This document shows positions 16,716 through 52,059 of a stretch of DNA of 64,000 bases, piece after piece. Made by a program: the position numbers and the translations under genes. The DNA is taken from NCBI GenBank assembly GCA_950295325.1, contig OX485806.1:14942001-15006000 (forward strand), given 5' to 3'. How positions within the stretch are numbered: position 1 is the stretch's first letter; each line of letters starts with the position of its first letter. This DNA comes from Polytrichum commune (taxonomy: Eukaryota > Streptophyta > Polytrichopsida > Polytrichales > Polytrichaceae). A model generated the notes under the pieces. It saw only the letters and a program-made list of their open reading frames with translations. It made no database searches and was not told where the DNA came from.

Positions 16716-17464
16716 ATATGAGGTAGGGTATATGTGCCTAATTTGGTTGCTTATTTAGGGGGTTACGTATATTTGAGTGGTGTGTAGTTAGGTGTGGATT
16801 TATGAAACACACCCAATAGACATATGTTTGAAAAGAGATTGGACTACGTATTCAACATCTATAAATTGTTCCAGGTTCAATAGGCAGTTCACATATATTG
16901 GGAGGGCTCTAAATATGATCATCTAATGAGAAAGAGAATCGTTAATTAGATAATGAGCAATATGGCCATGACACAATTAGGATCTAATAATCATGTCACA
17001 CTAATTGTGTCCTCCAAGAAGACGGCGCTAAGGTATGATTACAACACATCAATGAGACCGATGATCATAAGAATTGACATCATTATGTACTCACAATAGT
17101 AGGTATGACTATCAAAAGTCTTTGTTCAAGTGTAAGCCTCATAAAATGACCATAGATAGTACAAACCCATGACAACAAAAATACACAAATTCTTCATATT
17201 TTATAAGCAAGACAGAAAGAGACGAGGCCACCCACTCATGTTGGCGTGAATGAGGGAAGCATCATCTTGATTGTAGTTTTGAGCGCACATGTGACCTTGA
17301 GATTCATTTATGCAACAAGGCTATGGGACAAGTTCTACTGCCTCATGTTGGAGGTGTTCAAAGTCTATAAACAAAAAGTAAGAGTTTCTATAGTAAATGA
17401 GAGTTCTAAGCACATAAACCTCAACACATAGACTCTCATAAAATGATCCATTGACAAATTCCTA

Positions 17465-17660
17465 TCATTTTTTAAACTTGTTTGTGTTGGATAAGTTGTT
17501 CAAAGACATCATCATAACCATCACCAAGTAGCACATCAACAAGCTCAAATTATTGAACTTGTCTAATAACTCGTCGTTTGTATCATAATCGTGTGATCCT
17601 ACACTTGCATACAACATGGTCTTTCCAAAGACGTAGCTGAGCAACAACCTGGGCTACGCC
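17465..17660 (-). pseudogene. Short conserved ORF remnant, unrecognised
   Basis: The minus strand reads LLLSYVFGKTMLYAS, then DYDTNDELLD and FNNLSLLMCYL. The matching frame in arm 2 (49737-49981, plus strand) is also open. A diverged second copy of the first part (RLLLGYVLGETTL then stop) lies at about 17905-17863 within extra DNA found only in arm 1. The product is not recognised; it is probably transposon debris copied with the duplication. Confidence 0.35.
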
Positions 17661-18418
17661 ATACCACTATAATTGACCTTTCCAAAACGACACACCTCTT
17701 TGTTACTTCTACTTCAATCAAATCACTCCACCTTTGGTATCATTCACCACTATAGTCAAGGGCACCTTCATTAATTATACTTAAAGCAAATAACCAAAGC
17801 CTTTGTAGGCAGGCTCAATAAAGCAAAGCACTGAAGGCTGTTTTTATTCTCACTTAAAGCGTGGTCTCCCCCAAGACGTAGCCGAGCAGCAGCCTGGCTA
17901 CTCCGAACGGGCTCTTCTACCCCAAGGGATCTTTGGCCTTCATTCGCTGTGCGAACAAAGTGGTTTTGCCTAGAATGTGATTTTTTTTTTTACCATAGTT
18001 GACAACCATGTGCCACAATGCTGATGTGTCATCCACTACTAGAGCTCCCTTGTGAGCACATGTACATTTAACATGATTTTACCTATAATGATTTGCCGCA
18101 TGGCTACCGTAGTGGACCTTGCCATAAGTGGATGATTAAACCGGAGCCAAAGTATGTCATGCCTAAACACATGTCACTTGTTCATGCAAACATGATAACT
18201 CTAAGGATCTACTTGAACCGGAGGTTTGAGAGTAGATTCCAACATTATTCCTCCCTAACTTTTTGAATAACTTTGTGGACAAATTAGTTTTGAACCTTGA
18301 AATACAACTACATTAACGATACCCTGCTATGCATTGATTGTGAATATTTGCAATGAAATTTTTATATGATGGTTGTGTGGCATATATACACTATAAATAT
18401 ATCCCACAATTGGTGAAA

Positions 18419-18795
18419 TACACTAAATATGGCATTTAGTGTCACCAATTTTAATTGTCTTGCACAATACTAATTGTAAACTACGGTATAGTGTCACCCA
18501 CACTAAATGTTAACTGAACATTATTTGTCTTTCCTTGTAATATTTTTTTGGGAATTATAGATTTGCAATGTTGCAATTACTGTCACTAACCTAGTGACTT
18601 TTCATCCAAGTTTCAATCATCCATGACAATTATTCATCACAAGTTGCCGACAAGAGAAGGTAGGGTTTTGGCCAATGGATGAACTCATCCCTCATCCATG
18701 ACAATATTTGTTACTTTATTGATAAGAAGTGTCATCCGAAAAGTTACCATAGTGACATTAAATGCCATGTGACACTAAATATCATATTCAGTGTA
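18419..18795 (-). mobile_element. TACACT MITE, complete copy in arm 1
   Basis: A 377-bp element with imperfect 27-bp terminal inverted repeats: the left end TACACTAAATATGGCATTTA and the right end TGATATTTAGTGTCAC-like when reversed, finishing TTCAGTGTA. It has no coding capacity. The same element sits at the mirrored site in arm 2, so it inserted before the duplication. Confidence 0.85.
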
Positions 18796-19388
18796 GCGTA
18801 GGCCTAAAGACGTGACATGGAAAGATTGAGTTCTTTCTTTCAAATCACCTCATGCATTATGTTCAGATACATACGGAAAGACGGAAAATACGCTTCGCAT
18901 GTAGGCCTTAACTTAGAATAAATTCCAAAAACATAGATTCTATTCTTCGCCATCGGCATCTACGAATCAGGAAGTTCAGTGCATCTACAGAATCACCAAG
19001 AATGTGTGGATCCCGCACGTAGGCCTATTTCGGATGTCGCTCTACAGGTGTCACTGGCGAGAGGCTGGGGAGAATCTACGTGTACGTAGAAATGAAGCAC
19101 ATCTACGGAATCGGCATTTAACCTGAGGTTCCAACTAGGGTTTGACAACTTCCCTTTAGAAGGACGAACGCCATAGCCAAAGCTTGGACTTGTTGGAGCT
19201 CATCTTCTTCTCTCCTCTCGCGTTTTTGCATGTTGACAGCGAGAAGGAGAGGTGTTTGCGATTAGTAACAGTGAAGCCGTTTTTTCTTGCACATTTAGAG
19301 GTATTCTCTTGCAGGTTTCCGAGTGATTGTGATATTGCGGGGGTTTGCGTGATTGCGGTGGTGGATCGTGGGAAGAAGGTGTTGCAAG

Positions 19389-22300
19389 ATGTCTCTCCGA
19401 CCGAATGCTCGTGTGGAGGTGAGGAAGAAAGGGTACAAGCTGGCCGTGGATGCCGATGAGGCGCGGAGGAAGCGAGAAGACAACATGGTGGAGATCCGCA
19501 AGAACAAGAGAGACGAGAGCTTGCTGAAGAAGCGGCGAGAGGGGTTGCAGCCTGCGCAGTTCTCCACCACCGCTCAATCCGCCGCTATGGAGAAGAAGGT
19601 GCGTTCTTGTATTTTTGTAGGCTTTCTGGAAAATGTCACCGCAAGGCTTTTGGTTGGTGATATTCGCTCATTAGATAGGTTTGAGATGTGTGGACCCTCT
19701 TTCTGTGGCCTCGTGCTGTATCTGTATTTGCCCCAGGGTACGAGGAATGCCCTTGTATTGATGCGCAAGTGCTAAAAGTGTGAACGGAGTGATCCTGGTG
19801 CTGCATATTTGCTTGGCTTTGCTCTTCTTCAGGATTGCTTTGTCGAGCATTGCAGAGTGATCCTGTCATTGCCGTGATTTTCCAGTCAACACAAATAGGG
19901 TTTTAGCACTGCTTCCTGCTTCCAAAGCATGTGACTGTGGTCCTATTGAATCTTACGATTGTGACGATGTTTCTTACTTGTCTTAGCAACTGGAGAGCCT
20001 CCCCGCAATGGTATCGGGGGTGTATTCTGACGATGCTGCAACTCAGTGGGAGGCTACCACACAATTCCGAAAGCTTCTCTCCATTGGTATGTGGGCAATA
20101 AGATCTCCTTCCTGCACTTGCGTGTTGCGAGAGGCTGGTGATTGTAGTAGGATGGTTACATGTGCGGAGGTGTGGTTTGAGGAACGGCATTTTGTGTGTG
20201 CGCAGAACGGAGTCCACCAATCGAAGAAGTGATTGCAGCAGGTGTTGTACCAAGATTTGTGGAGTTCCTTGTTCGAGCGGACTTCCCTCAGCTTCAGGTT
20301 CTACTCGAGTTGCTTTTTGGCTTTTGCCCTATCTACAAGCTCTGCCCTCATTGCCGGCTTTTTCTAATCTACGTTATATATCGGATAAGGAATCTGTTTT
20401 ATACGTGTTGTATCATCCATACTGTGCATGAATTGATTTTGTGTGAATTTGTTGATCAACGTCAGTTTGAAGCAGCGTGGGCTCTCACCAACATTGCATC
20501 TGGAACATCAGATCACACACGAGTCGTGATTGATCATGGTGCCGTCCCAATCTTCGTTCAGCTTCTTAGCTCTCCCAGCGATGATGTTCGTGAGCAGGTG
20601 CGTAGAACAGGCCATTGGGAAATGGGTTCTGTCTGGATGTTGAGCAGTTTAGGTTTTCATCTTGAACCTGTCTCGTAGAAAGCAGTGCGGAAAAGAACGT
20701 AGACCACATCTTCAAGCAAGATTTTCTAGATATCATTTGTCAAATTTTAAAGTTTCACTTGATGGAATCGGATGAGGATGAGCACTAGACTGATGTGTGG
20801 TGATGCTAAAGCAAAGCACTATATATGTACGGTTATGTTTTGGTATCTTTGCTGTCATAATTCCAGGACGTAGTCCACCTCATTGAGCTGTGTAGTTATT
20901 ACAGACTGTTTCTATTTTTGCAGGCTGTGTGGGCACTTGGGAATGTTGCCGGAGATTCACCAAAGTGCAGGGATCTTGTTCTGAGTCATGGTGCCCTAAT
21001 GCCTCTGCTAGCTCAACTCACCGATAATGCAAAATTGTCTATGCTGAGAAATGCCACATGGACTCTTTCTAACTTTTGCAGAGGCAAGCCTCAGCCTCCA
21101 TTTGAACAGGTAGATGCTTTGTTCCGATGGACTTGCACAGCTGTTTTTAGTTGTAACTATTGGTTGAATTCGTGAGTTGGATTTCCTTCTGTGATAGGAA
21201 CCTTGCCCATTCAAGAATCAACACATACACTTATGGTGGTCCGTTTTTTTGGAAGTGTTTTGGGTTTTGTATCCTAATTGTTATCTTTGCTTTGTGCAGT
21301 CAAAGCCCGCCTTGCCAGCCTTGGAGCGTCTCATCCTCTCCAACGATGAGGAGGTTCTCACTGATGCATGCTGGGCTCTATCTTACTTGTCCGATGGTAC
21401 TAACGATAAAATCCAGGCAGTCATTGAAGCTGGTGTTTGCCGTCGACTTGTTGAGCTCTTGCTGTGAGTTCCCTATTTTGCTAGTCATTCTTTTTAAATC
21501 GTAGGGTGTCGTTTAAGTCGTATGGTATAAATTGTACTGTAATCTATTCTTCGATTTCATAATATCTTACTCGTTCAGTTTTGGGCCTTTGAGAGTGATG
21601 TACGACTCTGTCACTGATATGGTGGAGGTTTAAATGTACCTAGCAGCCATCCTTCACCATCTGTACTCATTCCGGCTTTGCGCACGGTGGGGAACATAGT
21701 TACTGGAGATGATCTTCAAACTCAGGTACATTGAGAAGATTTATCATTGTTTTGGTGCTATTGTTGGTTCTGTTTCTGCATGATTTGCGTGATGTTGATT
21801 GTGACGATTAATTGGGGTCCATATCGTGTTTTCGTGTAAATGGCAAAATAGTATTGGACAAGTTGTGGCATGTATCTGAATGAAATGTTGTGGTTCAGTT
21901 CATTATCAACAACCAGGCTCTACCCTGCCTCCTCCAACTTCTTACCAACAATCACAAAAAGAGCATTAAGAAGGAAGCGTGCTGGACAATCTCCAATATC
22001 ACAGCTGGAAACAAGGACCAAATTCAGGTGACTCTCTTGAATGCATCAAATGTGAATAGCTTGTGATGAAAACCTCGCTAGGATGAGGAAATGTGCAATG
22101 TGGACGTTTATGAACGCCAAATGGCAGGTTGGAGATTCTAATTTTAACAGACAAAGGTCTACTTCATTCTGCAAATAGCCTGACCAAGTACTGGTTGCTT
22201 TTATCCAGAGTGACCCATGAACGGGTCACCAGTTTCTGATGAACATGGATGCGTTCATGAATGTGTTTTTTCTGATGCAAGTTGTGATGTTGGCAGGCTG

Positions 22301-22920
22301 TCATTGATGCGAACATTATTCCTCCTCTTGTGGCACTGCTGGCATCAGCCGAGTTTGACATCAAGAAGGAGGCTGCTTGGGCAATTTCGAATGCGACATC
22401 CGGTGGAACCCACGAGCAAATAAAGTAAGGGAGCTGCAGGGAAAGTGCAGTATTTGAGGTTCTTTTTATGTACTGTTATTTGGCCTTTCTGCTATTTACT
22501 TTGCTCAATCTATCCAATTACTAATATTGTGCATTTTTTGGCAGGTACCTTGTGAACCAGGGCTGCATCAAGCCACTGTGCGATTTACTGACATGCCCCG
22601 ATCCAAGGATTGTGACAGTGTCTCTGGAAGGTCTGGAGAACATGTTGAAGGTTGGCGAGGCGGAGAAAGACCTGGGCAACAACAATGGAGTTAACATTTA
22701 TGCTCGGTACATTGACGAAGCGGAAGGTTTGGAAAAGATTGAGAATCTGCAAACTCATGACAACAACGAGATTTATGAGAAAGCTGTGAAGATTCTTGAG
22801 ACGTACTGGTTGGAGGAGGACGAGGACCAGAACGGGGCAATTGGAGGAGAGGTGTCGCAGTCAAATTTCACGTTTGGGGGGACTCAACCCCAAGTTCCCA
22901 CGGGCGGTTTCAACTTCTGA
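19389..22920 (+). CDS. IMPA: Importin alpha (copy 1), complete
   Basis: Importin alpha binds classical nuclear localisation signals and, through its N-terminal IBB domain, importin beta, carrying cargo through the nuclear pore. Ten exons join in frame: 19389-19598, 19987-20086, 20206-20297, 20466-20597, 20924-21109, 21300-21463, 21644-21725, 21899-22027, 22297-22424 and 22545-22920, giving 532 residues, the usual family length. Exon 1 is the basic IBB domain ([29 protein letters not shown]). The Armadillo repeats show the Trp/Asn pairs that form the NLS groove: [66 protein letters not shown]. The acidic C-terminal region ends with GGFNF. No frame damage is seen. The gene is duplicated at 44796-48372 in opposite orientation. 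Confidence 0.96.
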
Positions 22921-23940
22921 GGATCTGAAAATTGCTTTGGAGGAGTAAATCAATCAGGTCAGCTGTCTGTCATGCATCATGACATGGGGCGTGTGTACGT
23001 TGGTGACCAAGGGGATCTCGTCTTGTGACACGGAAGGCGTCCAGGATAGTCTATTCATCCACAGCTGAGTGGCTCAAGTTTGACTAATCTGCAGTATGCA
23101 GACTCGGAGAGATGGATCAAGTTATATTGTTCGTAAATACTGCATTCATCCCCTCTCCTGGGTTCAGTTCATTAAAATTTGAACTTGTCATGGTAGTTTT
23201 ATTTATACCAGCATGCATTATAGTTCCATTTCATATTTTGTTGATGGTTAGAACACCTTCAAAGTTGTGGATAGTTTGGATTCTTGCTTTCGGAGTGAAA
23301 TTTGCAGGTCTCATCACTTAACTGTTCAGAATGCTCCCTCAATTTGTTAGGGTGGAGTTAACATGAGAATACATATGTGAAGCTACTGTTCTGGAATAGA
23401 ATATTGCAATCAATTACCTGTGACTTTTTGACACGATACTTCTTGCCTTTTAAGAGATGAATCTTCACATGATGTATCATGCAAATCGTTTTTGGTCCAT
23501 ATTCCAAGCAATGCCTGCTCGATGATGTCCATCAGAGAGGAAGTGAAGGTCAAGTGGATATGTCGATCCTTGCAGTTTGCTAATTCTTTTGAATCACTCC
23601 CGTACAGCCATAGAGATATGTTTGGGGATGTTAAAATTTTCAAAGAATGTTGAAAATTCTCAGATTTTGATTCATCTTATCCTCTCGAATGGCAGATTCT
23701 TACTTATTTCACATCTGTTAATGAACTTCTCCACTTCCTAAACAATCTTAAGCAATGGAAAAGCAAGTGTGTTATTACGTGTAGTGTGCATATTGAAATA
23801 ATGTGCATAGTAAAGACTTCGATTGAAGTTTAAGTGTGAATTTGAAACTCTTGTAGAAAATCATCGAGTGGCATGTCAAGACAAGTTGGTAGGCCATAAC
23901 ATTTTGTTTTCAATAGAGCTGTCATCATAAGGTCGCACTA

Positions 23941-24580
23941 GCTTAAGCACATGTATGTCACAAATCGACAACCATAGGGAAAACATCACGGGTTCTATCT
24001 CATTGGGAAACTATTATAACCTAACCACATTTAAAAAAACACATGATGATATCAAGGAGGCCTTTCTTGCTAAAGAGTGGAGCTCTTTTCATCCCTTCGG
24101 GAAGAAACTAGATTAACTGCACCTCAAAGATTTTCTCAAATATGAATGTGAACTGTACTTGAAGCAACCATTGACACCACCATAACACAAGATCATTGCT
24201 GCTTACCGCACCTTAAATCATAAATTAGCCATTGAAATTGGACGATGGTCAACTATCCCTATCTAGATATACTAGACTATGCCACTTTTGCTCCTACAAT
24301 GCAGTTAAAGATGAGGCACATTTCTTGTTGGAATGTCCCCTATATTGAGCCCATAAGAGATAAGTTCCCGTCACTATTTGAGAATGTAGTCCTAGGCAGC
24401 CTCAAGTCTTTCTTTTAATTGAACCACCAAGTTGATATTAGCCTCTATACCACGGAGGCTACTACACTCCACCACTATAGAGAATTAGTTGGTTTGAAAC
24501 CATCATGATGTACTTTTAGTCCCATTAGCCTTTTCGGGTCCCTACACTTTAAAATCAAATTCATTTCATAAAGGCTGGGG
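23941..24580. other. Intergenic stretch without gene
   Basis: Lies just inside the inner edge of arm 1. Short, stop-rich frames only; nothing recognised. Confidence 0.4.
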
Positions 24581-24584
24581 AGCC

Positions 24585-25722
24585 CCCGATTAAAATTTTG
24601 AATATTTTTGATCTCGACTGAAAATTGTTGCTGCCCATCCCAACTTCAAAAAAGAAACTCTACTTGCATTCTTGAGGGCCACTTGTTCACAAAACCCATA
24701 TTGAGTGCACTTCACCTTCAAGGTCCAAAATCCACAATATACATGCACTTCTACTTAGTAATTTAGCAATTGACTTAGATTTCATTCCGAAATTAAACTG
24801 TCTATAAAGCATGTGATTAAGTTGGAAGTCAAAAACTTTACAAATTCCTCCTTAGCATTGAGGTTATAATTTTGGTGACTTACCATTTGAATGGGTTTTT
24901 GTCATTCTAAAATGAAGCTTAATTAGTGTGCTGACTTTATAATGTATACTTTATAATAGTTTAGTTAATCCATTCTACTTTCACAAGTATTCATACGCAT
25001 TCAAACTAATTAAGTGTGATTAAATGTAATCTAGCATATTTAGCCTAATTAATCCTAATAAAAATAGAAATTATGCATACCAAACTATTTAAGCTAATTG
25101 ATTCTAAATTGCACATACTTGAATTACTTAGTAATCTAATTCAAAGATGACAATTGATGTGCTTAATTACACTTGTTTAGAGTTCATTACACTTAATCAG
25201 GTTTAATGTGCTTACCTGATTCAATTACCAGGCTCAATTAGTTCGAATGTGTATGAATATTTCTAGAAACTTAGGCCTTGCGGTCAATCACATTCAATTA
25301 CGGTTTTTACACTTGATTACACCTAATCACACTTCATTTGTTTGAATGCGTATGAATACTTGTGAAAGTAGAAGGGATTACCTAAACTATTATAAATAAA
25401 TAAATAAATAAATAAGTGCAGTAATTATGCTTCAGTTTAGAATGACAAAGATCCTTTCAAATGGTAAGTCACCAAATTTATAACCTCACATGCTTTATTG
25501 ATGGCTTCACTTCGTAATGAAATCGAAGTCAGCTGCTTAATCAATGAGTAGAAGTGCACATATATTGTGGATTTTGGACCTCGAAGGTGAAGTGCACTCA
25601 ATATGGGTTTTGTGGACAAATGGCCTTTAAGAATGCAAGCACAATGTCTTCTTTTGAAGTCAGGCGGGGTGGGCAACACTTTTCAGTCGGAATTAGAAAA
25701 TTTCAGAATATTTATAGGGGAT
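24585..25722. repeat. 1.1-kb foldback (long imperfect palindrome)
   Basis: The two halves are inverted copies. Shared outer phrases are CACAAAACCCATATTGAGTG and GGTCCAAAATCCACAATATA (24682-24740 against 25550-25612). Middle phrases are TTTGGTGACTTACCATTTGA and GTCATTCTAAA (24870-24912 against 25437-25476). Inner phrases are TATAATAGTTTAG and CTACTTTCACAAGTATTCAT (24953-25005 against 25348-25398). The axis is near 25155. The loop region is AT-rich with many ATTACAC-type words. No protein is encoded. Confidence 0.85.
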
Positions 25723-25730
25723 TGCCATGG

Positions 25731-26415
25731 TCCCTATCCACCTCCCCCTAAAAGCTCGTAAGGGGAGGTTTAACGTCCCCTTGTAGATTAAGAAGAATGC
25801 AAGAACACTTTTAAAATAACACCGACTTTGGCAAATCACAATGGCTAATTGGGGATGTACCTGCTCATGAAGGCAGTGTAAGAAGTGATCCACAAAATGG
25901 GGACGATACCTTCACTTAATACAAATCCTCATATGCAATAAGGCTGATTTTGTGGCGATTCTCACTTAGCAATCCAACATCAATAGACACCCCTAGGTGA
26001 GGGTAAAAAGCTCTTTCCTTAAGACGACTTTGAGAATTTTTGTAGGTTGCATATGAATTGAAATGTTTTTGTATACTTTGTGTGGATTTGCTAATCTATG
26101 GATTATTTTTGAAAATTTTCCAAGCTACTTAACATTCTTGATGTAGAAAAGGTTCCTTAAAGTGTTGCTTAAGGCCTCAATACCTTAAGCACTAGTAGGA
26201 TTGTGGGTACTACCACACACTTGTATTGGACACACTGGTCTTTTGTGTAGAAATAACCAATCACTCACATCCACAATATGCATACGTAACCAATCAAACC
26301 CCACATGAACCATACAAACCCCACAAGAACTCCAATACGTCACAAAATGAATACATAGTATCCACGTAGAAACCCACCCTATCAAACCTACCCCCTCACA
26401 TTACCACATCAAATT
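25731..26415. other. Intergenic stretch without gene
   Basis: No recognisable coding frame or repeat structure was seen; possibly 5' debris of the adjoining LINE. Confidence 0.35.
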
Positions 26416-26419
26416 CTCC

Positions 26420-28075
26420 AACACATGAGAAAACGCCCCCAGAACAGACACACCCCCCCCCCCCCAAAAAAAAACCCCTACGACACCCATACCAACCACA
26501 TCCATCCTCCTAAGACTCTGAAGGCCAAATTGAAGGCAATACCGCAAGACTGGGGATCTATAGCCCTAACAACAATACCCAAATATCAGAAAGACTACCA
26601 TGGTACCAAAACATCCTAAGAGCAGAGCTTAATGCGCTACTCATCGCTATCAAAACCATTCAAACCATCCAGCTAGACATGCACATATTCACAAACAACC
26701 TTAATAACATATTTCTCATAAACAGTCACATACAACACCCATCATCACAACACCACCACTCGGATAAATTACTCATAGCAACAATTGTACATTAGATATA
26801 TTGGACCCTGTACAAAATCCACATGCACAAAGTGAGAACACATTCATGCATCATTGGGAACAAAATAGCTGACATGCTAGCAAATGAAGGAACACACATA
26901 GAGAAACCATCCATTACACCTCACATGCACATAGCCCACCCTGCCCCATATTGGCTAGGAAGTTGCCCGACTGCCACACACGATGGAGCCATTTGTAACC
27001 TTCATACATTTATTAAAAAAGAACACATGAACCGAGAATCCTCTGCAACCAAAAACAAATTCCCATATGTTAACAAATGGTTATCAAACAACCAAATAGA
27101 CCACAAACTCTCTAATCACTTCTAGAAAGCCGAGGGTGTAACCAATGCCTAAATTGCCCAAACTCTTTTATTCAAATTTGCCCAATACATGGGAAACCAT
27201 AGAATTTTTTTTTCACCCCTCACATACTAAAACCCCAGCTGCACCTTGTACCTTAATAATGACAGAGACACATGGCCACACCTCTTATCAACATGTGAGA
27301 ACCCACACATAAAATGCCTAAGAATATCACGCCACAACAAAGTAGTACACCTCATTGCCCAAACACTACTAGCCAACAAATCTACCTGATCCTTGACACT
27401 AACCAATGTAGGTAACTTCAACAACAAACCACTTGACTCAACAATCCCGGAACGGCTCCTCAAATGCACATGGACACACACAACATGCCAATGCCAAGCA
27501 AAACTAAGACCGGACATCCTACGCATAATAGGAGCCCCAACCCAATCACAAACACCAATATCACCCTCCCCGACACTCATAGTCCAAGTCATAGAATTTA
27601 CATATTGTTATGATAGATTCCCCGACCAAGCCCTCGCACAAAAACACACCAAATACGACCCACTAATTAACACCATACAAAACAATGGATGGAAAATCAA
27701 CCCCCTCACTACCATCATAGCTGGGGGAAAGGAGCCATACACGAATACTCCATTTAAAAACTCACCAACTCATCAAACATCCCAAAATCAAATATTAAAA
27801 CCCTCATGAAAAACATACCCCAAATGCCATGAAATATCTCACATATCTAGTCTTAAAGAAAATAAAACTTGACAACAAACAAACAAACACCCCCCACCCC
27901 ACCCCACCCCAATGAACTGGGGACAACTACTCTACTACCAGAGCCCACCTCCCAAAGGAGGCATAACACCCTATGTTGCATCTTGGTTAACGGTGATCAA
28001 GATACAGCTAACATGCTCAAATTCATGCTGGTACCTGAATACGGTCATCACTTTTTCTTTTTCTTTTTAATGTAG
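26420..28075 (+). mobile_element. Decayed non-LTR retrotransposon (LINE), RNase H and 3' end
   Basis: The plus strand encodes pieces of an RNase H domain of LINE type: ILRAELNALLIAIKTI (about 26617-26665), a degenerate TNNLNN segment, and IHMHKVRTHSCIIGN then KIADMLANEGTH (about 26820-26905), which match the AEL and HSG-GN-AD regions of these enzymes. A stop interrupts the domain at about 26793. Downstream frames (TWPHLLSTCENPHIK near 27265, then 27393-27809) resemble the C-terminal tail of such elements. The strand is unusually C- and A-rich, with poly-C at about 26449-26464. The reverse transcriptase is absent, as in a 5'-truncated copy, and several stops and shifts make it non-functional. 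Confidence 0.72.
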
Positions 28076-28088
28076 AAATAACCATCTG

Positions 28089-28207
28089 CCAAAGACCGCC
28101 CTAGGTATGAGGCCCATACCTGCCACCCTTGCCAAACCTGGTGGTGGACCCAAATACCCGCCTCCCGGGTATAACGGTGGGTTTTAGCCTAAGGTCGCGG
28201 TCTTTGG
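28089..28207. repeat. 119-bp foldback with CCAAAGACCG termini
   Basis: Begins CCAAAGACCGCCCTAGG and ends CCTAAGGTCGCGGTCTTTGG, which are inverted copies. The interior is GC-rich with further self-complementary words (CCCGCCTCCCGGGT). It is probably a tiny MITE-like element next to the LINE 3' end. Confidence 0.65.
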
Positions 28208-28437
28208 TAAGGTCAGGTGGGGAGGGGCCATAAGTGGAATAATCAACCTAGTGATCAAAACACATGGATTGTAACATATGACGAATCACACAAATGCGGA
28301 AGTATATATGCATCAAGTGGCGTGGCGTTTATCCGGCTTTGGATTCATGGCGGTGTGGATCAGGCTTCCACATCGGCCGCCTCCCCCCCGAGCTTGTTCA
28401 TGCCATGGCTCTGGTTTAGCTGCCTTGAATGGCAGGA

Positions 28438-40377: not shown

Positions 40378-40515
40378 TTGCCCAGTCTCAAAATTAGTGA
40401 ATGCTGAAATTTATGTTGAGTGACACTAATGTCATGAATACATGCTCATTTACCATGCATTTCAAGAAACTTAGTGCATGCTCCTAGGTGCTTGTGGAGC
40501 GATAAAATAATTTAT
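40378..40515 (+). repeat. Dispersed repeat R2, copy 2
   Basis: Matches the reverse complement of 31440-31615 (see that entry). Confidence 0.6.
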
Positions 40516-40939
40516 ATGCAAAGACATGTTTGTTAGTGAATAGTGTTCTTATAAATAATATTCTCAAGGAATCCTATCCGGATGAACAGTGCTTCCTAAA
40601 TCTTTTGATGGCACTAATTTCATAGTGAAGAGAAATTCAGTATCACCTTCGCGAATTTCCCACACTCACTATCAACCCTCCCTCACTAATTGAGATAATC
40701 AATGTACATACTGCACACTCAAACCTTGGCTCATATAATGTGGGAAATCTTAGAGTTTGATGCCCACATCCGTCAACGAACCAAAGTTACAAAACAGTGG
40801 AAAGAGAAATGTGAATCAATGACCCAATTCCACATAATGATGCTCCAAACTTTGGGAAATGTATCTTGAATTCTAACGGTATGTGTGCCTTATATGATCA
40901 CTTGTCTTATGTAGCTAGCTAGTATCGGGTTTCATATTG

Positions 40940-41500
40940 TGTATGTCGGAAGTGATCATGCCATTGTAAGCATCGTGGCACAACCTCAAAGCAAAAGTCC
41001 ACTTTCATTTTTGGAACTTGTTGCCAACTTTGAGGCCACTTCCTGTTGAAGAAGGCAGTCTTAATTTGTAGCCACTTTGAGATCACTTCCATATATCCAA
41101 AAGGTGCCTCATCGATAAAGTTTCACACACAAAATATGTTGTATGAATGTGGTAGACTATATTTTTACACAACGTTGGACCTCCAAATAGGCACACATAA
41201 GTGCACATGTGAACCTTGAAATGGGAGCCCTTACACAATCGATTTACATATTATAGAATTTGCACTTTCATTGGAGATCCTAGGAGCATATGAACTCTAA
41301 TTATTAATCTCTGACATGCATTCTTCCTCATTGAAGAATGCATGTTAAGTGTCACATACACTATTTGCACAAGGTCGCAATTAGGGGCAACTCTAAACTA
41401 GAGAGCTTTAGGGCCCATGATCGTTGAAATCGAAAATCTCTCATTGGTGGGAAAAACCAAGATTGTCCCACTTCACTGTACACTAAAACTTGGGCCCAAG
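40940..41500 (+). repeat. Dispersed repeat R1, copy 2
   Basis: Matches 9825-10360 in order and spacing, including GGAGCCCTTACACAATC and GTGGGAAAAACC or GTGGGAAAAGCT. The distal part found at 10370-10700 is not present here. Confidence 0.78.
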
Positions 41501-42093
41501 AGATGGATTCTTTATTGAAAACCTAAATGATGTGCAAGGGTCACCATGAAATTAAACCCCCTCAATAAAAGAAGATTACAGAGAAAAACATATGTACATG
41601 TACTAACAAACATGCCCAAAAAATGGACTCATTTATTTATACTAAGATTTTAAATTTAATATGAATAATGCCTCCACTACGTATACAAACTATATATGTG
41701 ATGAATTAAAACCCTTTATTACATATAAAATCCACTTTCACTTTCCAATGAGAAAGTCAGTGGATTTTTTTCATCCATAGCATGTAACTCAATGATTGTA
41801 TCAAACAAACAAAGATAAGAGCTTAATAACTTAGTAACAATCTAGAGAGAAAACCTAAAGGAAGCCCATGAAAGCTCTAAGAACCTCTACTTTGTAGAAA
41901 CCTAGAATCCAAATGCAAACCCCAACAAGAGGACACATGATAGTCATTGAGGACTATGACCATGTGAAAGCAATGGATGAAAACGTGAAGTGGATGAAAC
42001 CAACACATCTATCGTCAAATTTTCTCTATACCTTAGGGCCCCTTTTTGTACATCTACCTTTACTTCATAAAATTTTATAGCCTTTTTTTAAAT
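41501..42093. other. Intergenic stretch without gene
   Basis: AT-rich sequence with short frames; nothing recognised. Confidence 0.4.
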
Positions 42094-42252
42094 GTACACA
42101 CTAGAGAAAAACAATTCCTCACCCTTATGTATACAGCTAGGGCAAACCAACCCATACACTAGTTCCTTGGAGGCAAGGGTTTAGACATCCAACAAGGAAC
42201 AAGTGTATGGGTTGGTTCGCCCAAATCTTATGTATACTATGTACACTAATGC
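42094..42252. repeat. ~160-bp hairpin
   Basis: Left arm GCAAACCAACCCATACACTA with GTTCCTTGG (42133-42163) pairs with the right arm CCAACAAGGAACAAGTGTAT with GGGTTGGTTCGCCC (42189-42223). Matching TATGTATAC words flank both arms. The loop is about 25 bp. Confidence 0.82.
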
Positions 42253-42263
42253 CTCAAAGAATA

Positions 42264-42510
42264 GGGCCGGGGATTCGTGGCACTCAAGTAAAATCATCCG
42301 TGCGGATGAAAAAAACACAGGAATCATCTAAATGGCTATTTTTGGGCAATTTGATTCCGGAAATAGAGTCAAAGGCCCCGAATTAGTCTAGTGACGTCAC
42401 ATTCGAATGAATCGGCCCTCAACCCCATAGGGGGGCCTTTTTTATTGGAGCCACTTCATCCATGATATCTTGGATGGATGATTTTACTTGAGTGCCACGA
42501 ATCCCCAGCC
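42264..42510. mobile_element. hAT-type MITE with 8-bp target duplication
   Basis: Terminal inverted repeats of about 35 bp: left GGGCCGGGGATTCGTGGCAC then TCAAGTAAAATCATCC, right in inverse, ending GCCACGAATCCCCAGCC. AAAGAATA flanks both ends (42256-42263 and 42511-42518); an 8-bp duplication is diagnostic of hAT elements. The 247-bp element has no coding capacity. Confidence 0.92.
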
Positions 42511-42518
42511 AAAGAATA

Positions 42519-43034
42519 CCCCTTCTTACACTCACGCCAGTTTGAACGCAGTATGAAGAGTCCACCCCCCCCCCCCCCCCCTCCCCCACACAGGAGCTTG
42601 GGGGTCCTAAGGCATTACTAAGGTACTTATCAACACCTCCTTGCCTTCTGCATTCTTGTTTCAACACCGGTGTTGATACTGCACATATGAGGGTTTGTAT
42701 GTTGCATGTTCTACTATTTCAAAAACGTGTTAGGAGGCTCTTTGTTTGCTATCTTACAAAGTTGATGGATATGCAACAAGGCTAGCACCACACGGTTTTT
42801 TACAGTTGGGTTTTTCATAGTTTTTTTAAAAGACCCAATGATCTAAGGCCTAACAAAATCCGATTTTATTCGGTTTTATTACAGATGAGTTGACATCATA
42901 AGGCAGAGGGCCCAATGTTCACCAATGGTGATGCCGACTGCCAAGTGCCGAATGCTGCAATAAAAACCATGGTTTTATTTGCAGAAATCAAGTTTTTTGC
43001 ATTAAAACCAAAACCCAATGCATGTCTTCTTCGT
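42519..43034. other. Intergenic stretch with a poly-C run
   Basis: A homopolymer run of about 18 C lies near 42565-42583. No gene was recognised. Confidence 0.45.
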
Positions 43035-43969
43035 AACGTGCGGTCTTATCATAACGTCTGTATCCAAAATAAAATGAGAGCTTATCAACTTGTTTTGACA
43101 TTGTGTTTTCCCCTTTCATGACACTCGATGATTTTCTACAAGTAAAGAGTTTCAAATTCATCCTTATGCACATTATTTCAATCGAAGTCTTTACTATGCA
43201 CATTATTTCAATATGCACACTACACGTAATGACACACTTGCTTTTCCATTGCTTAAGATTGTTTAGGAAGGAGAAGTTAATTAAGAGATGGGAAATAAGT
43301 AAGAATCTACCACTCGAGAGGATAAGATGAATCAAATCTGAATTGACTTGGCTATATGTCAAACTTGCCATATGTCAAATCTTATGAGAAATCAAAGTAT
43401 TTGGGTTCCGGGGGAAGTGATGCAATATGACATATGTAGCCATATGACATAAGGAGTGATGCAAGGATCGACATATCCACTTGACCTTCACTTCCTCTTT
43501 GATGGACATCATCGAGCAGGCATTGCTTGAAATATGGACCAAAAACGACTTGCATGATACATCATGTGAAGATTCATCTCTTAAAAGGCAAGAAGTATCG
43601 TGCCAAAGAGTCACACGTAATTGATTGCAATATTCTATTCCAGAACAGTAGCTTCACATATGTATTCTCATGTTATCTCCACCCTAACAAATTGAAGCAG
43701 CACTGTGAGCAGTGATGAGACCTGCAAATTTCACTCCGAAAGCAAGAATCCAAACTGTCCACAACTTTGAAGGTGTTCTAACCATCAACAAAATATGAAA
43801 TGGAACTATAATGCATGCTGGTATAAATAAAACTACCCTGACAAGTTCAAATTTTAATGAACTGAACCCAGGAGAGGGGGTGAATGCAGTATTTACGAAC
43901 AATATAACTTGATCCATCTCTCCGAGTCTGCATACTGCAGATTAGTCAAACTTGAGCCACTCAGCTGTG

Positions 43970-44660
43970 GTCATGGCTTGCTGAAAGAATTATGCACACC
44001 ACTTTGAATGCACGGATACCGAATTGCATTTGACGAACACTTCAAATGGACAGACCATGTTCACAAGAAATTGCGGGAAAAACACCAACTACCAGTCGGA
44101 TAGTTAACTAGCTTTCGTTAACTAATTCAATTCAGTCAAAATCAAAGCCAGGTTCAGATATCCAGGCCTGCACTTAGTATAATGTCGTCCATCACCGAGG
44201 GTGATGGAGCCCTAGGTCTCATCACAGCAACACTAGGGTGCGTGAGGTAAATTGGGGTCGGACAAGAAGCGCTGGGGTTACCAGAACTCAGCTAGAACTC
44301 AGCTATTTGTCCCTGTCACCGCTGCTGGTGAAGGGCCGACAGTGACCACCTCTAAACTTGATGCCACTGTATCCATAGCAATGAATGCACAAACAGGGAG
44401 TAAAACCCCTGGTGTGGACTATCTAAGAAAATCTCTAGCTCTCATGGCGCGCACTCGCTGCCTCATTGGCAAGTGTGGCGACACCTAGACACATGCGAGA
44501 AACAACTGTCTCACAACTCAAGCTCTGGTGACTACAAGGGTTCCATTCAGAAACCCCAGATCTCACGAAGGAGTGCAACCCCAGACAAAGCAATGCCCAA
44601 GAGATATTATGAGTCTTTGCACCAATTCGTTCCTTCTGGGATGAAATCATTCTTGTGATG
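43970..44660. other. Arm 2-specific segment beside the importin alpha 3' end
   Basis: In arm 1 the phrase GTCTATTCATC is followed directly by CACAGCTGAGTGGCTC (23050-23075). In arm 2 these two are 0.7 kb apart. The segment encodes nothing recognisable. It is either an insertion in arm 2 or a deletion in arm 1. Confidence 0.75.
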
Positions 44661-44795
44661 AATAGACTATCCTGGACGCCTTCCGTGTCACAAGACGAGA
44701 TCCCCTCGGTCACCAACGTACACACGCCCCATGTCATGATGCATGACAGACAGCTGACCTGATTGATTTACTCCTCCAAAGCAATTTTCAGATCC

Positions 44796-47700
44796 TCAGA
44801 AGTTGAAACCGCCCGTGGGAACTTGGGGTTGAGTCCCCCCAAACGTGAAATTTGACTGCGACACCTCTCCTCCAATTGCCCCGTTCTGGTCCTCGTCCTC
44901 CTCCAACCAGTACGTCTCAAGAATCTTCACAGCTTTCTCATAAATCTCGTTGTTGTCATGAGTTTGCAGATTCTCAATCTTTTCCAAACCTTCCGCTTCG
45001 TCAATGTACCGAGCATAAATGTTAACTCCATTGTTGTTGCCCAGGTCTTTCTCCGCCTCGCCAACCTTCAACATGTTCTCCAGACCTTCCAGAGACACTG
45101 TCACAATCCTTGGATCGGGGCATGTCAGTAAATCGCACAGTGGCTTGATGCAGCCCTGGTTCACAAGGTACCTGCCAAAAAATGCACAATATTAGTAATT
45201 GGATAGATTGAGCAAAGTAAATAGCAGAAAGGCCAAATAACAGTACATAATAAGAACCTCAAATACTGCACTTTCCCTGCAGCTCCCTTACTTTATTTGC
45301 TCGTGGGTTCCACCGGATGTCGCATTCGAAATTGCCCAAGCAGCCTCCTTCTTGATGTCAAACTCGGCTGATGCCAGCAGTGCCACAAGAGGAGGAATAA
45401 TGTTCGCATCAATGACAGCCTGCCAACATCACAACTTGTATCAGAAAAAACACATTCATGAACGCATCCATGTTCATCAGAAACTGGTGACCCGTTCATG
45501 GGTCACTCTGGATAAAAGCAACCAGTACTTGGTCAGGCTATTTGCAGAATGAAGTAGACCTTTGTCTGTTAAAATTAGAATCTCCAACCTGCCATTTGGC
45601 GTTCATAAACGTCCACATTGCACATTTCCTCATCCTAGCGAGGTTTTCATCACAAGCTATTCTCATTTGATGCATTCAAGAGTCACCTGAATTTGGTCCT
45701 TGTTTCCAGCTGTGATATTGGAGATTGTCCAGCACGCTTCCTTCTTAATGCTCTTTTTGTGATTGTTGGTAAGAAGTTGGAGGAGGCAGGGTAGAGCCTG
45801 GTTGTTGATAATGAACTGAACCACAACATTTCATTCAGATACATGCCACAACTTGTCAAATACTATTCTGTCATTTACACGAAAACACGATATGGACCCC
45901 AATTAATCGTCACAATCAACATCATGCAAATCATGCAGAACCAGAACCAACAATAACATCAAAACAATGACAAAACTTCTCAATGTACCTGAGTTTGAAG
46001 ATCATCTCCAGTAACTATGTTCCCCACCGTGCGCAAAGCCGGAATGAGTACAGATGGTGAAGGATGGCTGCTAGGTACATTTAAACCTCCACCATATCAG
46101 TGACAGGGTCGTACATGACTCTCAAAAGCCCAAAACTGAACGAATAAGACATTATGAAATCGAAGAATAGATTACAGTACATTTAATACCATACGATTTA
46201 AACGACACCTTACGATTTAAAAAGAATGACTAGCAAAATAGGGAACTCACAGCAAGAGCTCAACAAGTCGACGGCAAACACCAGCTTCAATGACAGCCTG
46301 GATTTTATCGTTAGTGCCATCGGACAAGTAAGATAGAGCCCAGCATGCATCAGTGAGAACCTCCTCATCGTTGGAGAGGATGAGACGCTCCAAGGCTGGC
46401 AAGGCGGGCTTTGACTGCACAAAGCGAAGATAACAATTAGGATACAAAACCCCAAACAGTTCCAAAAAAACGGACCACCATAAGTGTATGTGTTGATTCT
46501 TAAATGGGCAAGGTTCCTATCACAAAAGGAAATCCAACTCACAAATTTAACCAATAGTTTCAACTAAAAACAGCTGTGCAAGTCCATCGGAACAAAGCAT
46601 CTACCTGTTCAAATGGAGGCTGAGGCTTGCCTCTGCAAAAGTTAGAAAGAGTCCATGTGGCATTTCTCAGCATAGACAATTTTGTATTATCGGTGAGTTG
46701 AGCTAGCAAAGGCATTAGGGCACCATGACTCAGAACAAGATCCCTGCACTTTGGTGAATCTCCGGCAACATTCCCAAGTGCCCACACAGCCTGCAAAAAT
46801 AGAAAACAATCTGTAATAACTACCCAGCTCAATGAGGTTCACTACGCCCTGGAATTATGACAGCAAATATCCCAAAATATAACCGACACATATAGTGCTT
46901 TGCTATAGCATCACCACACATCAGTCTAGTGCGAGTTCCAAATTTCCATGATTCTGAACTTCCTCATCCGATTCCATCAAGTGAAACTTTAAAAATTGAC
47001 AGCACAAATGATATCTAGAAAATCTTGCTTCAAGATGTGGTCTACGTTCTTTTCCGCACTGCTTTCTACGAGACAGGCTCAAGATGAAAACCAACTGCTC
47101 AACAACACCCAGACAGAACCCATTTCCCAATGGCCTGTTCTACGCACCTGCTCACGAACATCATCGCTGGGAGAGCTAAGAAGCTGAACGAAGATTGGGA
47201 CGGCACCATGATCAATCACGACTCGTGTGTGATCTGATGTTCCAGATGCAATGTTGGTGAGAGCCCACGCTGCTTCAAACTGACGTCGATCAACAAATTC
47301 ACACAAAATCAATTCATGCACAGTATGGATGATACAACACGTATAAAACAGATTCCTTATCCAATATATATCGTAGATTAGAAAAATCCGGTAATCAGGG
47401 CAGAGATTGTAGATAGGGCAAAAGCCAAAAAGCAACTCGAGTAGAACCTGAAGCTGAGGGAAGTCCGCTCGAACAAGGAACTCCACAAATCTTGGTACAA
47501 CACCTGCTGCAATCACTTCTTCGATTGGTGGACTCCGTTCTGCGCACACACAAAATGCCGTTCCTCAAACCACACCTCCGCACATGTAACCATCCTACTA
47601 CAATCACCAGCCTCTCGCAACACGCAAGTGCAGGAAGGAGATCTTATTGCCCACATACCAATGGAGAGAAGCTTTCGGAATTGTGTGGTAGCCTCCCACT

Positions 47701-48372
47701 GAGTTGCAGCATCGTCAGAATACACCCCCGATACCATTGCGGGGAGGCTCTCCAGTTGCTAAGACAAGTAAGAAACATCGTCACACTCGTAAGATTCAAT
47801 AGGACCACAGTCACATGCTTTGGAAGCAGGAAGCAGTGCTAAAACCCTATTTGTGTTAACTGAAAAATCAAGGTAAGGACAGGATCACTCTGCAATGCTC
47901 GACAAAGAAATCCTGACGAAGAGCAAAGCCACATCCAAAAGCTCAAGCAAATATACAGCACCCAAGGATCATTCCGTTCGCACTTGTAGCACGTGCGCAT
48001 CAATACAAGGGCATTCCTCGTACTCTGTGGCAAACAGATATACAGCACGAGGCCACAGAAAGAGGGTCCACACAACTCAAACCTATCTAATGAGGGGATA
48101 TCACCAACCAAAAGCCTTGTGGTGACATTTTCCAGAAAGGCTTCAAAAATACAAGAACACACCTTCTTCTCCATAGCGGCGGATTGAGCGGTGGTGGAGA
48201 ACTGCGCAGGCTGCAACCCCTCTCGCCGCTTCTTCAGCAAGCTCTCGTCTCTCTTGTTCTTGCGGATCTCCACCATGTTGTCTTCTCGCTTCCTCCGCGC
48301 CTCATCGGCATCCACGGCCAGCTTGTACCCTTTCTTCCTCACCTCCACACGAGCATTCGGTCGGAGAGACAT
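44796..48372 (-). CDS. IMPA: Importin alpha (copy 2), complete
   Basis: Second full importin alpha gene, same exon structure as 19389-22920 in mirror image; the first exon is 48372-48163 and the last 45171-44796. The IBB domain, all Armadillo motifs (for example [25 protein letters not shown]) and the C-terminal GGFNF are intact. The translated exons are nearly identical to copy 1. The one amino-acid change I could see is Ala to Thr in TDN(A/T)KLSMLRN (codon at about 46685-46683). Other exon differences, such as GGT to GGC in LSDGTND and GCA to GCT in IQAVIEA, are silent. Introns differ by scattered substitutions and small indels. The intact frame and mostly silent differences suggest a recent duplicate still under constraint. 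Confidence 0.95.
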
Positions 48373-48966
48373 CTTGCAACACCTTCTTCCCACGATCCAC
48401 CACCGCAATCACGCAAACCCCCGCAATATCACAATCACTCGGAAACCTGCGAGAGAATACCTCTAAATATGCAAGAAAAAACGGCTTCACTGTTTCTTAA
48501 ATCGCAAACACCTCTCCTTCTCGCTGTCAACATGCAAAAACGCGAGAGGAGAGAAGAAGATGAGCTCCAACAAGTCCAAGCTTTGGCTATGGCGTTCGTC
48601 CTTCTAAAGGGAAGTTGTCAAACCCTAGTTGGAACCTCAGGTTAAATGCCGATTCCGTAGATGTGCTTCATTTCTACGTACACGTAGATTCTCCCCAGCC
48701 TCTCGCCAGTGACACCTGTAGAGCGACATCCGAAATAGGCCTACATGCGGGATCCACACATTCTTGGTGATTCTGTAGATGTACAGAACTTCCTGATTCG
48801 TAGATGCCGATGGGGAAGTGTAGAATCTATGTTTTTTGAATTTATTCTAAGTTAAGGCGTACATGCGACGCGTATTTCCATCTTTCCGTATGTATCTGAA
48901 CATAATGCATGAGGTGATTTGAAAGAAAGAACTCAATCTTTCCATGTCACGTCTTTAGGCCTACGC

Positions 48967-49342
48967 TACACTGAATATGATATTTAGTGTCACATGGCAT
49001 TTAATGTCACTATGGTAACTTTTCGGATGGCACTTCTTATCAATGAAGTAACAAATATTGTCATGGATGAGGGATGAGTTCATCCATTCGCCAAAACCCT
49101 ACCTTCTCTTGTCGGCAACTTGTGATGAATAATTGTCATGGATGATTGAAACTTGGATGAAAAGTCACTAGGTTAGTGACAGTAATTGCAACACTGTAAA
49201 TTTATAATTCCCAAAAAATATAACAAGGAATGACAAATGATGTTGGGTTAACATTTAGTGTTGGTGACACTACATTGTGGTTTACAATTAGTATTGTGCA
49301 AGACAGTTAAAATTGGTGACACTAAATGTCATGTTTAGTGTA
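48967..49342 (+). mobile_element. TACACT MITE, complete copy in arm 2
   Basis: A 376-bp element with imperfect 27-bp terminal inverted repeats (TACACTGAATATGATATTTA at the left; ATGTTTAGTGTA at the right). It sits at the mirrored position of 18419-18795. Confidence 0.86.
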
Positions 49343-50191
49343 TTTTACCATATGTAGGATATATTTATAGTGTATATATGCCACAAAATCATCATATAAA
49401 AATTTCATTGCAAATATTCACAATCAATGCATAGCGGGGTATCGTTAATTTTAGTTAAATTTCAAGGTTCAAAACTAACATGTTCTATAAAGTTAATCAA
49501 AAAGTTTTGGAGGAATAATGTTGGAATCTACTCTCAAACCTCCGGTTCAAGTAGATCCTTAGAGATTATCATGTTTGCATGGATAAGCGTTGTAGCACAT
49601 ATTTGTCAACTATGGTAAAAACAATTTATTTAAAAAATAATTAAAAAATCACATTCTAGAATGAAGGTGCCCATGACTACAGTGGTGAATGGTACCAAAG
49701 GTGGGGTGATTTGAATGAAGTAGAAGTAACAAAGAGGTGTGTCCTTTTGGAAAGGTTCGTTATACTGGTATGGTGCCCAGGTTGTTGCTTAGCTACATCT
49801 TTGGGAGGACCATGTTGTATGCAAGCGTAGTGTCGCATGATTATGATACAAACAATGAGTTATTAGACGAGTTCAATAATTTGAGCTTGTTGATGTGCTA
49901 CTTGGTGATGCTTATGGTGATGTCTTTGAACAACTTATTCAACACAAATGAATTGGAAAAAATGATGGGAAATTGTCGATGGAGTCTATGTGTTGAGGTT
50001 TATGTGCTTAGAACTCCCATTTACTATAGACATTCTTATTTTTTGCTTATAGACTTTGATCACGTCCAACATGAGACAATAGCTCTTGTCCCATAGCCTT
50101 GTTGCGTAAACCAATCTCAAGTTCACATGTGAGCTCAAAACTATGATCAAGATAATGCTTCCCTCATTCACACCAACATGAGTGGCTGGCC

Positions 50192-50192
<1 letters not shown>

Positions 50193-50229
<37 letters not shown>
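50193..50229. repeat. CT microsatellite, arm 2 only
   Basis: About 17-18 CT units. The mirrored site in arm 1 (about 17210-17226) has only a short interrupted purine run (GACAGAAAGAGACGAGG), so the array grew or shrank after duplication. Confidence 0.9.
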
Positions 50230-50231
<2 letters not shown>

Positions 50232-50404
50232 TATAAATATGAAGAACTTGTGTATTTTGGTTGTCATTTGTGTTGTACTATCTATGGTCGTTCTATGAGG
50301 CTTACACTTGAACAAAGACTAATTGATGTTCATACCTACTCTTGTGAGTACATAATGATGTCAATTCCTATGATCATTGGTTTGATTCACAATATTACAT
50401 GTGA

Positions 50405-51275
50405 CACCGCTAATTCTAAATTGTTAATAAATGTTGCAAAATGCTCATTTTTCATTTTGCACGATATATGTCTTCCCCATTCCTTAGACTCCTCAAGGTT
50501 TCTCACATATGATGCACATATCAACAACATTCTTATACACAAATTAACTTCATGATGCGAATCCATATAGTATTCAATGAAAAAGTTAACATGTCATCTA
50601 CCTATAAATATTCACCCATTCAATCCTATAAACCCAACAATAATACCCTTTGTGTTGTAATCACACCTAGCCTCATGCATGATACACAAGTCGTTGTTCT
50701 AGGTGGTCATTAGTGTTAATCTTGTCATTTTTGGAGCTTGTTTTGTTGTTGGTCGGATTCAAATATTTTAGCCTTGTCATTGGCCTTTCTTTCCAACCTT
50801 CAGCTCTTTGTCCATCTTTGTGCCTTGTACCATATTTCAAATTAACCCCGATGGACCTTTTTACTCTAGGTGGCGTCAGTTTGTCAAACTTACTAAAACA
50901 ACAATGTCTAGCTCTCAAACCTCCCAAGGGGGGGGGATAGGGAACTAACCTTCCATTGGAAATGTGTTGCAACAAAATACAAGGTCTCATGTATTGTTTC
51001 AAAAATATAATTTACGGAGATCTTGGAAAAACTTGGCATTTTGGAAATCCGTTTGCAAACTTAAAAGCCACGTTCCATAACATTAATCAAATATAAAAGA
51101 TTTTTTTTGAACATGTGCATCACTTCATAGCCATCCTTGAAAGACCCCTTTGTCTCGTGTAGTTCATATATATATTTGCAAGGCAATAGTGCTTCACCTA
51201 CAGAGCCTCCATGCAACCGCTTTTTCACCACTTACACCTTACTTAAGGTATGTGGGCCTTAAAAACCTATATCTT
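50405..51275. other. Arm 2-specific segment, no gene
   Basis: No counterpart in arm 1, where the flanking sequences join near 17035. It includes a GGGGGGG run at about 50930. No coding similarity or clear terminal repeats were recognised. Confidence 0.6.
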
Positions 51276-52059
51276 TTTAACTTAGTACCAACTTCTTGGA
51301 GGACACAATTTGTGTGACATGATTATGAGATCCTAATCGTGTCGTAGCCATTTTGCTCATTGTCAAATTAAAGGTAATTTTTCTCATTAGATGATCATAT
51401 TTAATGTCCTCCCAATATATGTTGATTGCTTATTGAACATAGAACAATTTACAGATGTTGAATACATAGTTCAATCTCTTTTCAAGCACATGTTTATTGG
51501 GTGTGTTTCTTAAAATTAGGCACATACAATATACCCTACCTCATTGTAATGTAACTAGAATTATTGGCTCTGTTTGTAGGATAGAGACTATGCATCAACT
51601 TCTTCGTTTCAAGAGCAAATTTTCTAACCACTTTGTGTTCACACTTGGACGTTACTTGTTCTTGTTATTTTTTGTCCACTTTATGTAATGTGGATGTTAA
51701 CTATAGTTTTTATATATATACATATAAGTGCTCCCTAAAATGCATTGAAAGAAATCTAGTCGAGAAGAAGTATATGAGCCCATGGAATGGATTCCAGCCC
51801 TCTCGTGAGGCCACGTCACATTTCCATTTATGTCCGTCCGATTCATAACTTTTTCATGTGTGCCGTAGATGTTCGTTTTCAGCTTGTACATCGAGGATTC
51901 AGCTTGTAGATGTCTGTCCGATTAAATTTTATTTTCATGTCTGCCGTCGATTTTGAAGTGAAACTTAACCGGAGCTTTTGGCGATGGATTCAAGGCGACG
52001 TTGAATTCAAGGCGTCGTTGCTTTCGTATTTCTGTAAGAAGATGAGGCTCGTCTCCTGT

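Follow-up and report, generated by a model that had tools for sequence, protein, structure and literature searches.

In Physcomitrella, the tail-to-tail gene pair cHsp70-1/cHsp70-2 shows hardly any synonymous divergence: its table row in the source reads 0.0008, 0.0030 and 0.2774, values that we take as Ka, Ks and Ka/Ks (PMC5028893). Another pair tabulated there, mtHsp70-2/3, is also tail-to-tail and far more diverged (1.94, 4.43; PMC5028893), which indicates that arrangement alone does not predict likeness. Concerted evolution has been proposed for tandem arrays of the same moss (PMC3045890, citing Lang et al. 2008). In Arabidopsis, the VIM4-VIM2 and PAI4-PAI1 inverted repeats yield small RNAs, and a 2.8-kb intergenic deletion in the head-to-head VIM4-VIM2 pair is reported to enable read-through (PMC13213937). 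Mammalian sex-chromosome gene palindromes are gene-carrying inverted repeats with arm-to-arm conversion (PMC6790999).

The importin alpha gene pair described here shares features with each of these systems. Like cHsp70-1/cHsp70-2, it consists of convergent neighbouring duplicates with hardly any synonymous divergence, but its members are separated by 19 kb that contain repeats and another gene, and its introns have measurably diverged. With the Physcomitrella tandem arrays it has in common very similar neighbouring copies and gene conversion as the probable explanation, although the evidence here is a within-gene patchwork in one pair and not family-wide likeness. VIM4-VIM2 and PAI4-PAI1 are likewise inverted plant gene duplicates, PAI4-PAI1 being tail-to-tail too; the coding regions of the importin alpha copies, in contrast, end ~22 kb apart, and silencing of the PAI/VIM type for this reason seems unlikely for the pair. 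Unlike that of the mammalian palindromes, the homogenisation of the importin alpha arms appears patchy. No plant importin alpha gene pair was found among the titles listed by a literature search on importin alpha. Family, arrangement and process each have described precedents, and the importin alpha pair is a new example.

The window, i.e., the whole stretch of DNA that was analysed, is 64 kb long, has a GC content of 40.6% and contains no N. Comparison of the window with itself revealed an inverted duplication whose arms stand in opposite orientation around a 19-kb spacer, as a sequence-only reading of the same DNA had proposed. Self-comparison, an end search and the printed sequence together place arm A at about 16720..23940 (plus strand) and arm B at about 43035..51542 (minus strand). 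Five inverted matches, all with E <= 5e-67, join the arms: 18183-23063 with 49581-44654 and 23059-23574 with 43970-43460 (96.1% identity each), 17057-17772 with 50381-49660 (85.7%), 16799-17021 with 51514-51292 (87.0%), and 23660-23875 with 43341-43117 (89.0%). In a sensitive end search (E up to 0.05), arm homology ended at ~16799/51514 and ~23938/43038, and a short further match out to ~16720/51542 was seen by eye; the arm ends first read from the letters (16716, 23940, 43035 and 51545) were therefore right to within tens of bases. Alignment of arm A to the reverse complement of arm B, which that reading had recommended as a check, recovered the inverted homology, with identity that is patchy along the arms.

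Several blocks are present on one side only. Arm B carries a 687-bp block downstream of copy B (44657-43971, minus strand) that is absent from arm A, as well as two blocks in the 5' flank (51282-50669, 614 bp, and 50650-50390, 261 bp, minus strand) that are separated by 18 aligned bases. Arm A alone carries 17773-17969 (197 bp) and 18019-18174 (156 bp), both upstream of copy A on the plus strand. Two presence/absence blocks of 0.7-0.85 kb had been described previously: the smaller is the 687-bp block, the 0.85-kb block resolves into the 614-bp and 261-bp pieces, and the A-only blocks had gone unlisted. A (TC)17 microsatellite lies in arm B at 50195-50228. No target-site duplication or terminal inverted repeat was recognised at the 687-bp block, and no GT-AG ends were seen by eye, so that neither a transposon nor a lost 3'-UTR intron was accepted as its origin; a repeat search of 43000-44800 returned a single inverted pair (18 nt, 78%) away from the block ends. 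The block may be either a deletion from arm A or an insertion in arm B.

Each arm contains a complete importin alpha gene with ten exons, nine GT-AG introns and the same open frame, which bears out the earlier claim of two intact genes. Copy A (19389..22920, plus strand) has exons at 19389-19598, 19987-20086, 20206-20297, 20466-20597, 20924-21109, 21300-21463, 21644-21725, 21899-22027, 22297-22424 and 22545-22920. The exons of copy B (44796..48372, minus strand), which lies tail to tail with copy A, are 48372-48163, 47758-47659, 47539-47448, 47279-47148, 46790-46605, 46414-46251, 46070-45989, 45815-45687, 45419-45292 and 45171-44796. Only 4 of 1599 coding bases differ between the copies, namely L206 (CTG/TTG), A214T (GCA/ACA), G273 (GGT/GGC) and A280 (GCA/GCT). 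The description of the coding differences as almost all silent with one Ala/Thr change was thus exact: three are silent, and A214T is the sole difference between the proteins. Methylation of paired exons, as in silencing of the PAI/VIM type, would be expected to produce C-to-T changes; three of the four exon differences are transitions (two C/T, one G/A), a sample too small to show such a pattern and one from which conversion could have erased it. Codon usage is weakly biased (effective number of codons 55.6, GC3 0.54).

By domain content, both genes encode importin alpha (karyopherin alpha), and binding of nuclear localisation signals and of importin beta is predicted for the products. The copy A protein, from which that of copy B differs only at residue 214, contains an importin-beta-binding domain at residues 12-95 (PF01749, E=9.6e-24), an armadillo array in eight stretches (PF00514) and the atypical last repeat (PF16186, E=1.4e-20). 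It matches the solved importin alpha chain 20yg_A over its full length (E=6.2e-279); the other best full-length solved relatives are 4b8j_A and 4tnm_A, presumably rice and Arabidopsis importin alpha chains. At the position aligned to residue 214, 20yg_A has A and both 4b8j_A and 4tnm_A have T, and either residue therefore seems to be tolerated. The acceptor of exon 7 is a tandem one in both arms, with two AG three bases apart. Use of the first AG gives the 532 residues counted here for each copy, and use of the second gives 531; the latter is the likelier main form, since all three aligned solved chains are one residue shorter at this point.

The spacer between the arms (23941..43034, ~19.1 kb) contains repeats and one recognised gene. 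This is the oxygenase gene that had been noticed within the spacer; it encodes a clavaminate-synthase-like (TauD/TfdA) protein of 373 residues (32676..34883, plus strand, exons 32676-33185 and 34272-34883). A pattern-based search of prokaryotic genomes with the oxygenase found 21 stretches that fit the pattern, five of which encode a relative, with best-segment identities of 23-25% for four of them and, for the remaining one, 47% over a segment of 36 residues. The search was directed at close relatives, and it speaks against a close prokaryotic donor, the only kind of donor it covers. Elsewhere, the window contains a piece of a FragX_IP (CYFIP) family gene and a Cu/Zn-SOD domain; together with importin alpha and its solved relatives, this gene content points to a eukaryote, probably a land plant. 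No RNA family matched the window in Rfam at gathering score, an ARAGORN scan of the window found no tRNA genes, and ten further stretches of the window had no Pfam match at Pfam's own cut-off.

Divergence was counted at silent sites along the arms. The counts leave out gapped columns, positions 17031-17048, 17773-18182 and 23575-23659, everything outside 16799-23875, codon positions without a silent change and the nonsynonymous A214T site; the aligned parts of the three omitted pieces differ at 1/18, 6/57 and 48/85 sites, the last being unalignable sequence. Synonymous sites differ at 3 of ~373 positions and introns at 83 of 1930 (p=0.0003). Individual introns gave 25/388 (intron 1), 0/119 (2), 7/168 (3), 22/325 (4), 8/190 (5), 9/180 (6), 9/173 (7), 2/267 (8) and 1/120 (9), so that introns 1 and 3-7 together differ at 80/1424 sites and introns 8-9 at 3/387. 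Moving outward from the gene, the upstream segments differ at 4/389, 12/399 and 33/416 sites, followed by the outer 5' flank (16799..17772, plus strand), the most diverged and a transition-rich part of the arm, at 111 of 940 aligned sites. Downstream segments gave 1/138, 15/511 and 11/213. The scattered intron and flank substitutions mentioned in the sequence-only reading are present, and silent divergence among arm segments ranges from 0% to 11.8%. The contrast between exons and introns depends on which of them are compared: synonymous sites of exons 1 and 4-7 (3/~187) differ from introns 1 and 3-7 with p=0.014, while exons 4-7 (3/~140) do not differ significantly from introns 3-7 (55/1036, p=0.14).

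The nine introns are heterogeneous in divergence (p=0.0008). Introns 8-9 are less diverged than introns 1 and 3-7 (Fisher p=6e-6, for a grouping picked after seeing the data), and the longest difference-free silent run in 18183-23574 has a permutation p of 0.0098 under one rate. A two-state hidden Markov model of silent sites placed low-divergence tracts at 18569-18881, 18982-19601, 19888-20338, 20383-20636 and 21857-23324, and exons 5-7 fell into the high-divergence segment 20637-21856, so that exon identity there may be due to chance or selection. The data are better described by a mosaic of near-identical tracts than by a fixed rate per sequence class: the two-state mosaic without classes reached a log-likelihood of -1022.1 with 4 parameters, compared with -1027.2 with 5 parameters for one rate per class, and class rates plus mosaic reached -1006.4 with 8 parameters, a gain of ~21 log units for 3 parameters. 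BIC hardly separates the mosaic models: 2078.7 for the plain mosaic, 2079.1 with an exon multiplier added and 2081.6 for class rates plus mosaic. These tests, all made within the pair, favour gene conversion as the probable cause over one common age combined with constraint that differs between sequence classes.

The pattern is probably best explained by an older inverted duplication in which gene conversion has since rewritten part of the sequence while purifying selection acted on both genes. An inverted segmental duplication of ~7 kb, carrying one importin alpha gene, would have taken place early enough for freely evolving sequence to accumulate ~5-8% divergence and several indels. Later, the two inverted copies would have been homogenised in patches by ectopic gene conversion within the chromosome: one patch covers the last third of the gene and the 3' sequence next to it, another the block of exons 2 and 3, and a third, probably, the promoter and exon 1. 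The first patch corresponds to the putative conversion tract 21857..23324 (plus strand), which runs from the end of intron 7 and exon 8 into the 3' region and differs at 7 of ~966 silent sites; its arm B counterpart, ~45857-43700, is split by the 687-bp B-only block. The second, also a putative conversion tract, runs from the end of intron 1 to the start of intron 3 (19888..20338, plus strand; 1/~306 silent sites) and spans exon 2, intron 2 and exon 3. The third (18982..19601, plus strand; 4/~457), which covers upstream/5' UTR sequence and exon 1, may reflect either conversion or promoter constraint.

Near-identical noncoding tracts adjoining introns that are 4-7% diverged are what concerted evolution would leave behind. 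Gene conversion, which the sequence-only reading had raised as a possibility, is supported as the likely source of the low-divergence patches by the near-identity of introns 2, 8 and 9 and of the region just 3' of the gene; derived changes shared by the arms would be its direct sign. Inversion of the spacer, the other possibility raised there, may occur in principle. Silent divergence, on the other hand, was not uniform along the unit, and the same reading's description of the duplication as young does not hold as a single age for the whole. Of the ~424 nonsynonymous sites in exons 4-7, 1 differs, whereas the rate of introns 3-7 would predict ~22.5 differences; it thus seems that purifying selection maintains both copies, although conversion also removes differences. 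Expression of both genes and selection in favour of the two copies are inferred.

The near-identical exons probably underestimate the age of the duplication, and the safest baseline for divergence would be the 5-8% of the intron cores. The outer 5' flank had suggested an older age, but transitions make up 69 of its 111 differences, against 38 of the 80 in introns 1 and 3-7, and for transversions alone (42/940 versus 42/1424) the excess is reduced to p=0.054. Transitions in CG context number 21 in the flank and 8 in these introns, where the C may be in either arm; counted over the two strands of arm A, there are 28 CG-context cytosines in the flank and 74 in the introns. With an excess made up mostly of transitions, the flank says little for an older age and does not date the event. 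A repeat at 9389-9779 served as outgroup for the upstream segment that it shares with the arms: the arms differ there at 17 ungapped sites, and the repeat agrees with arm A at 8 of them, with arm B at another 8 and with neither at 1, so that neither arm appears to have evolved faster there.

A single recent inverted duplication without conversion, in which chance and selective constraint (on exons, the promoter, the UTR and some of the introns) account for the low patches, is a rather unlikely alternative, though one with several points in its favour. Exons and the promoter/5' UTR are expected places of constraint, and the flank excess consists mostly of transitions. Within introns 1 and 3-7, divergence is lower at positions up to 40 bp from an exon (15/480) than at the remaining ones (65/944, p=0.003), as splicing constraint would give, and this expectation counts against conversion as the cause. 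Constraint does not readily account, however, for introns 8-9 and 2, which are noncoding yet nearly identical, in a window where Rfam recognises no known RNA family; weak codon bias offers no obvious cause for synonymous constraint, and the mosaic improves the fit even on top of class rates.

Homogenisation could also have been centred on exons, with conversion that begins in them or is confined to them (±~40 bp), or with spliced cDNA as donor, the diverging introns progressively shrinking the targets. We regard this as improbable. The low divergence within 40 bp of exons fits exon-centred DNA tracts as well as splicing constraint, and argues against spliced cDNA.

Fold-back errors usually take the form of inverted arms, and an assembly artefact, whether a folded-back read or a misjoin of two oppositely oriented alleles, was considered; it is very improbable. 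The arms are not near-identical apart from random errors, as a fold-back would leave them: they differ by ~270 counted substitutions and five one-sided blocks (156-687 bp), yet by only 4/1599 coding bases with both frames open, and errors falling at random would have hit exons too. Beyond either end of the arms homology is lost, whereas misjoined alleles would be expected to run on. An assembly fold-back, the very case that the sequence-only reading had set against its duplication, appears unlikely on these grounds.

Conversion of the exons of one copy by cDNA of the other while introns drift is the least credible reading: cDNA replacement, together with high homologous recombination, is discussed in a moss genome paper as a route of intron loss (PMC3729371), and exon synonymous sites still evolve at 0.22 times the rest once tracts are modelled (log-likelihood from -1022.1 to -1018.0 for one parameter), but the exon term brings no gain by BIC (2079.1 versus 2078.7), all nine introns are present in both copies, and near-identity enters introns 2, 8 and 9 and the 40-bp edges, where a spliced template cannot supply intron sequence.

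An older duplication with patchwise conversion would make this pair a caution against dating duplications by coding divergence, as its synonymous sites look several times younger than introns 1 and 3-7. The idea that introns limit recombination between duplicated genes has been put forward as an opinion (PMC9220161), and the pair is a compact natural case for asking whether they do, as well as whether a 19-kb spacer between inverted copies is flipped. What is known of importin alpha itself is left unchanged by the pair, which is ordinary as genes, yet a clear small example of duplicated genes staying alike.

The spacer of about 19 kb (23941-43034), which separates the two arms of the inverted duplication, contains on its forward strand a gene for a clavaminate-synthase-like oxygenase (32676-34883), coding for 373 amino acids and interrupted by a single 1086-bp intron. 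Out of 16 matches to solved structures, the top ones were clavaminate synthase 1 (1drt_A, E=6e-17), clavaminate synthase 3, and asparagine oxygenase (2og5_A), all of them bacterial enzymes. The GC content of the exons is 57%, and their CpG observed/expected ratio is 1.02, versus 0.46 and 0.39 in the spacer to each side. A pattern-based search of prokaryotic genomes revealed no close prokaryotic relative. The gene could have been acquired long ago from a bacterium or a fungus. A repeat of ca. 140 bp, present in three copies (34838-35108 and 37055-37197), begins close to the 3' end of the oxygenase coding sequence.

Weak, sub-threshold RNase H matches (26514-27122, forward strand; E=0.03 and 0.0075) fall in two neighbouring open frames, perhaps representing a decayed retroelement within the spacer. 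A Helitron-type element (55540-59187, forward strand) encodes a Helitron_like_N domain and a PIF1 helicase in different reading frames. One half of a dispersed repeat, whose longer copy is at 9389-10349, lies upstream of both importin alpha genes (18454-18781 and 48981-49302), and the other half lies within the spacer (40931-41494).

An imperfect hairpin distinct from the duplication arms (24584-25720; ca. 450 bp per arm, main pieces 77-86% complementary) is separated by ca. 650 bp from the inner boundary of arm A, the left-hand arm. It could represent an element of the fold-back or MITE-like type, and may also be a candidate fragile site for the importin inverted duplication.

Both importin alpha copies share a tandem acceptor at exon 7 (21641-21647 and its arm B counterpart), with two AG dinucleotides three bases apart. 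It could yield two importin isoforms that differ by one serine.
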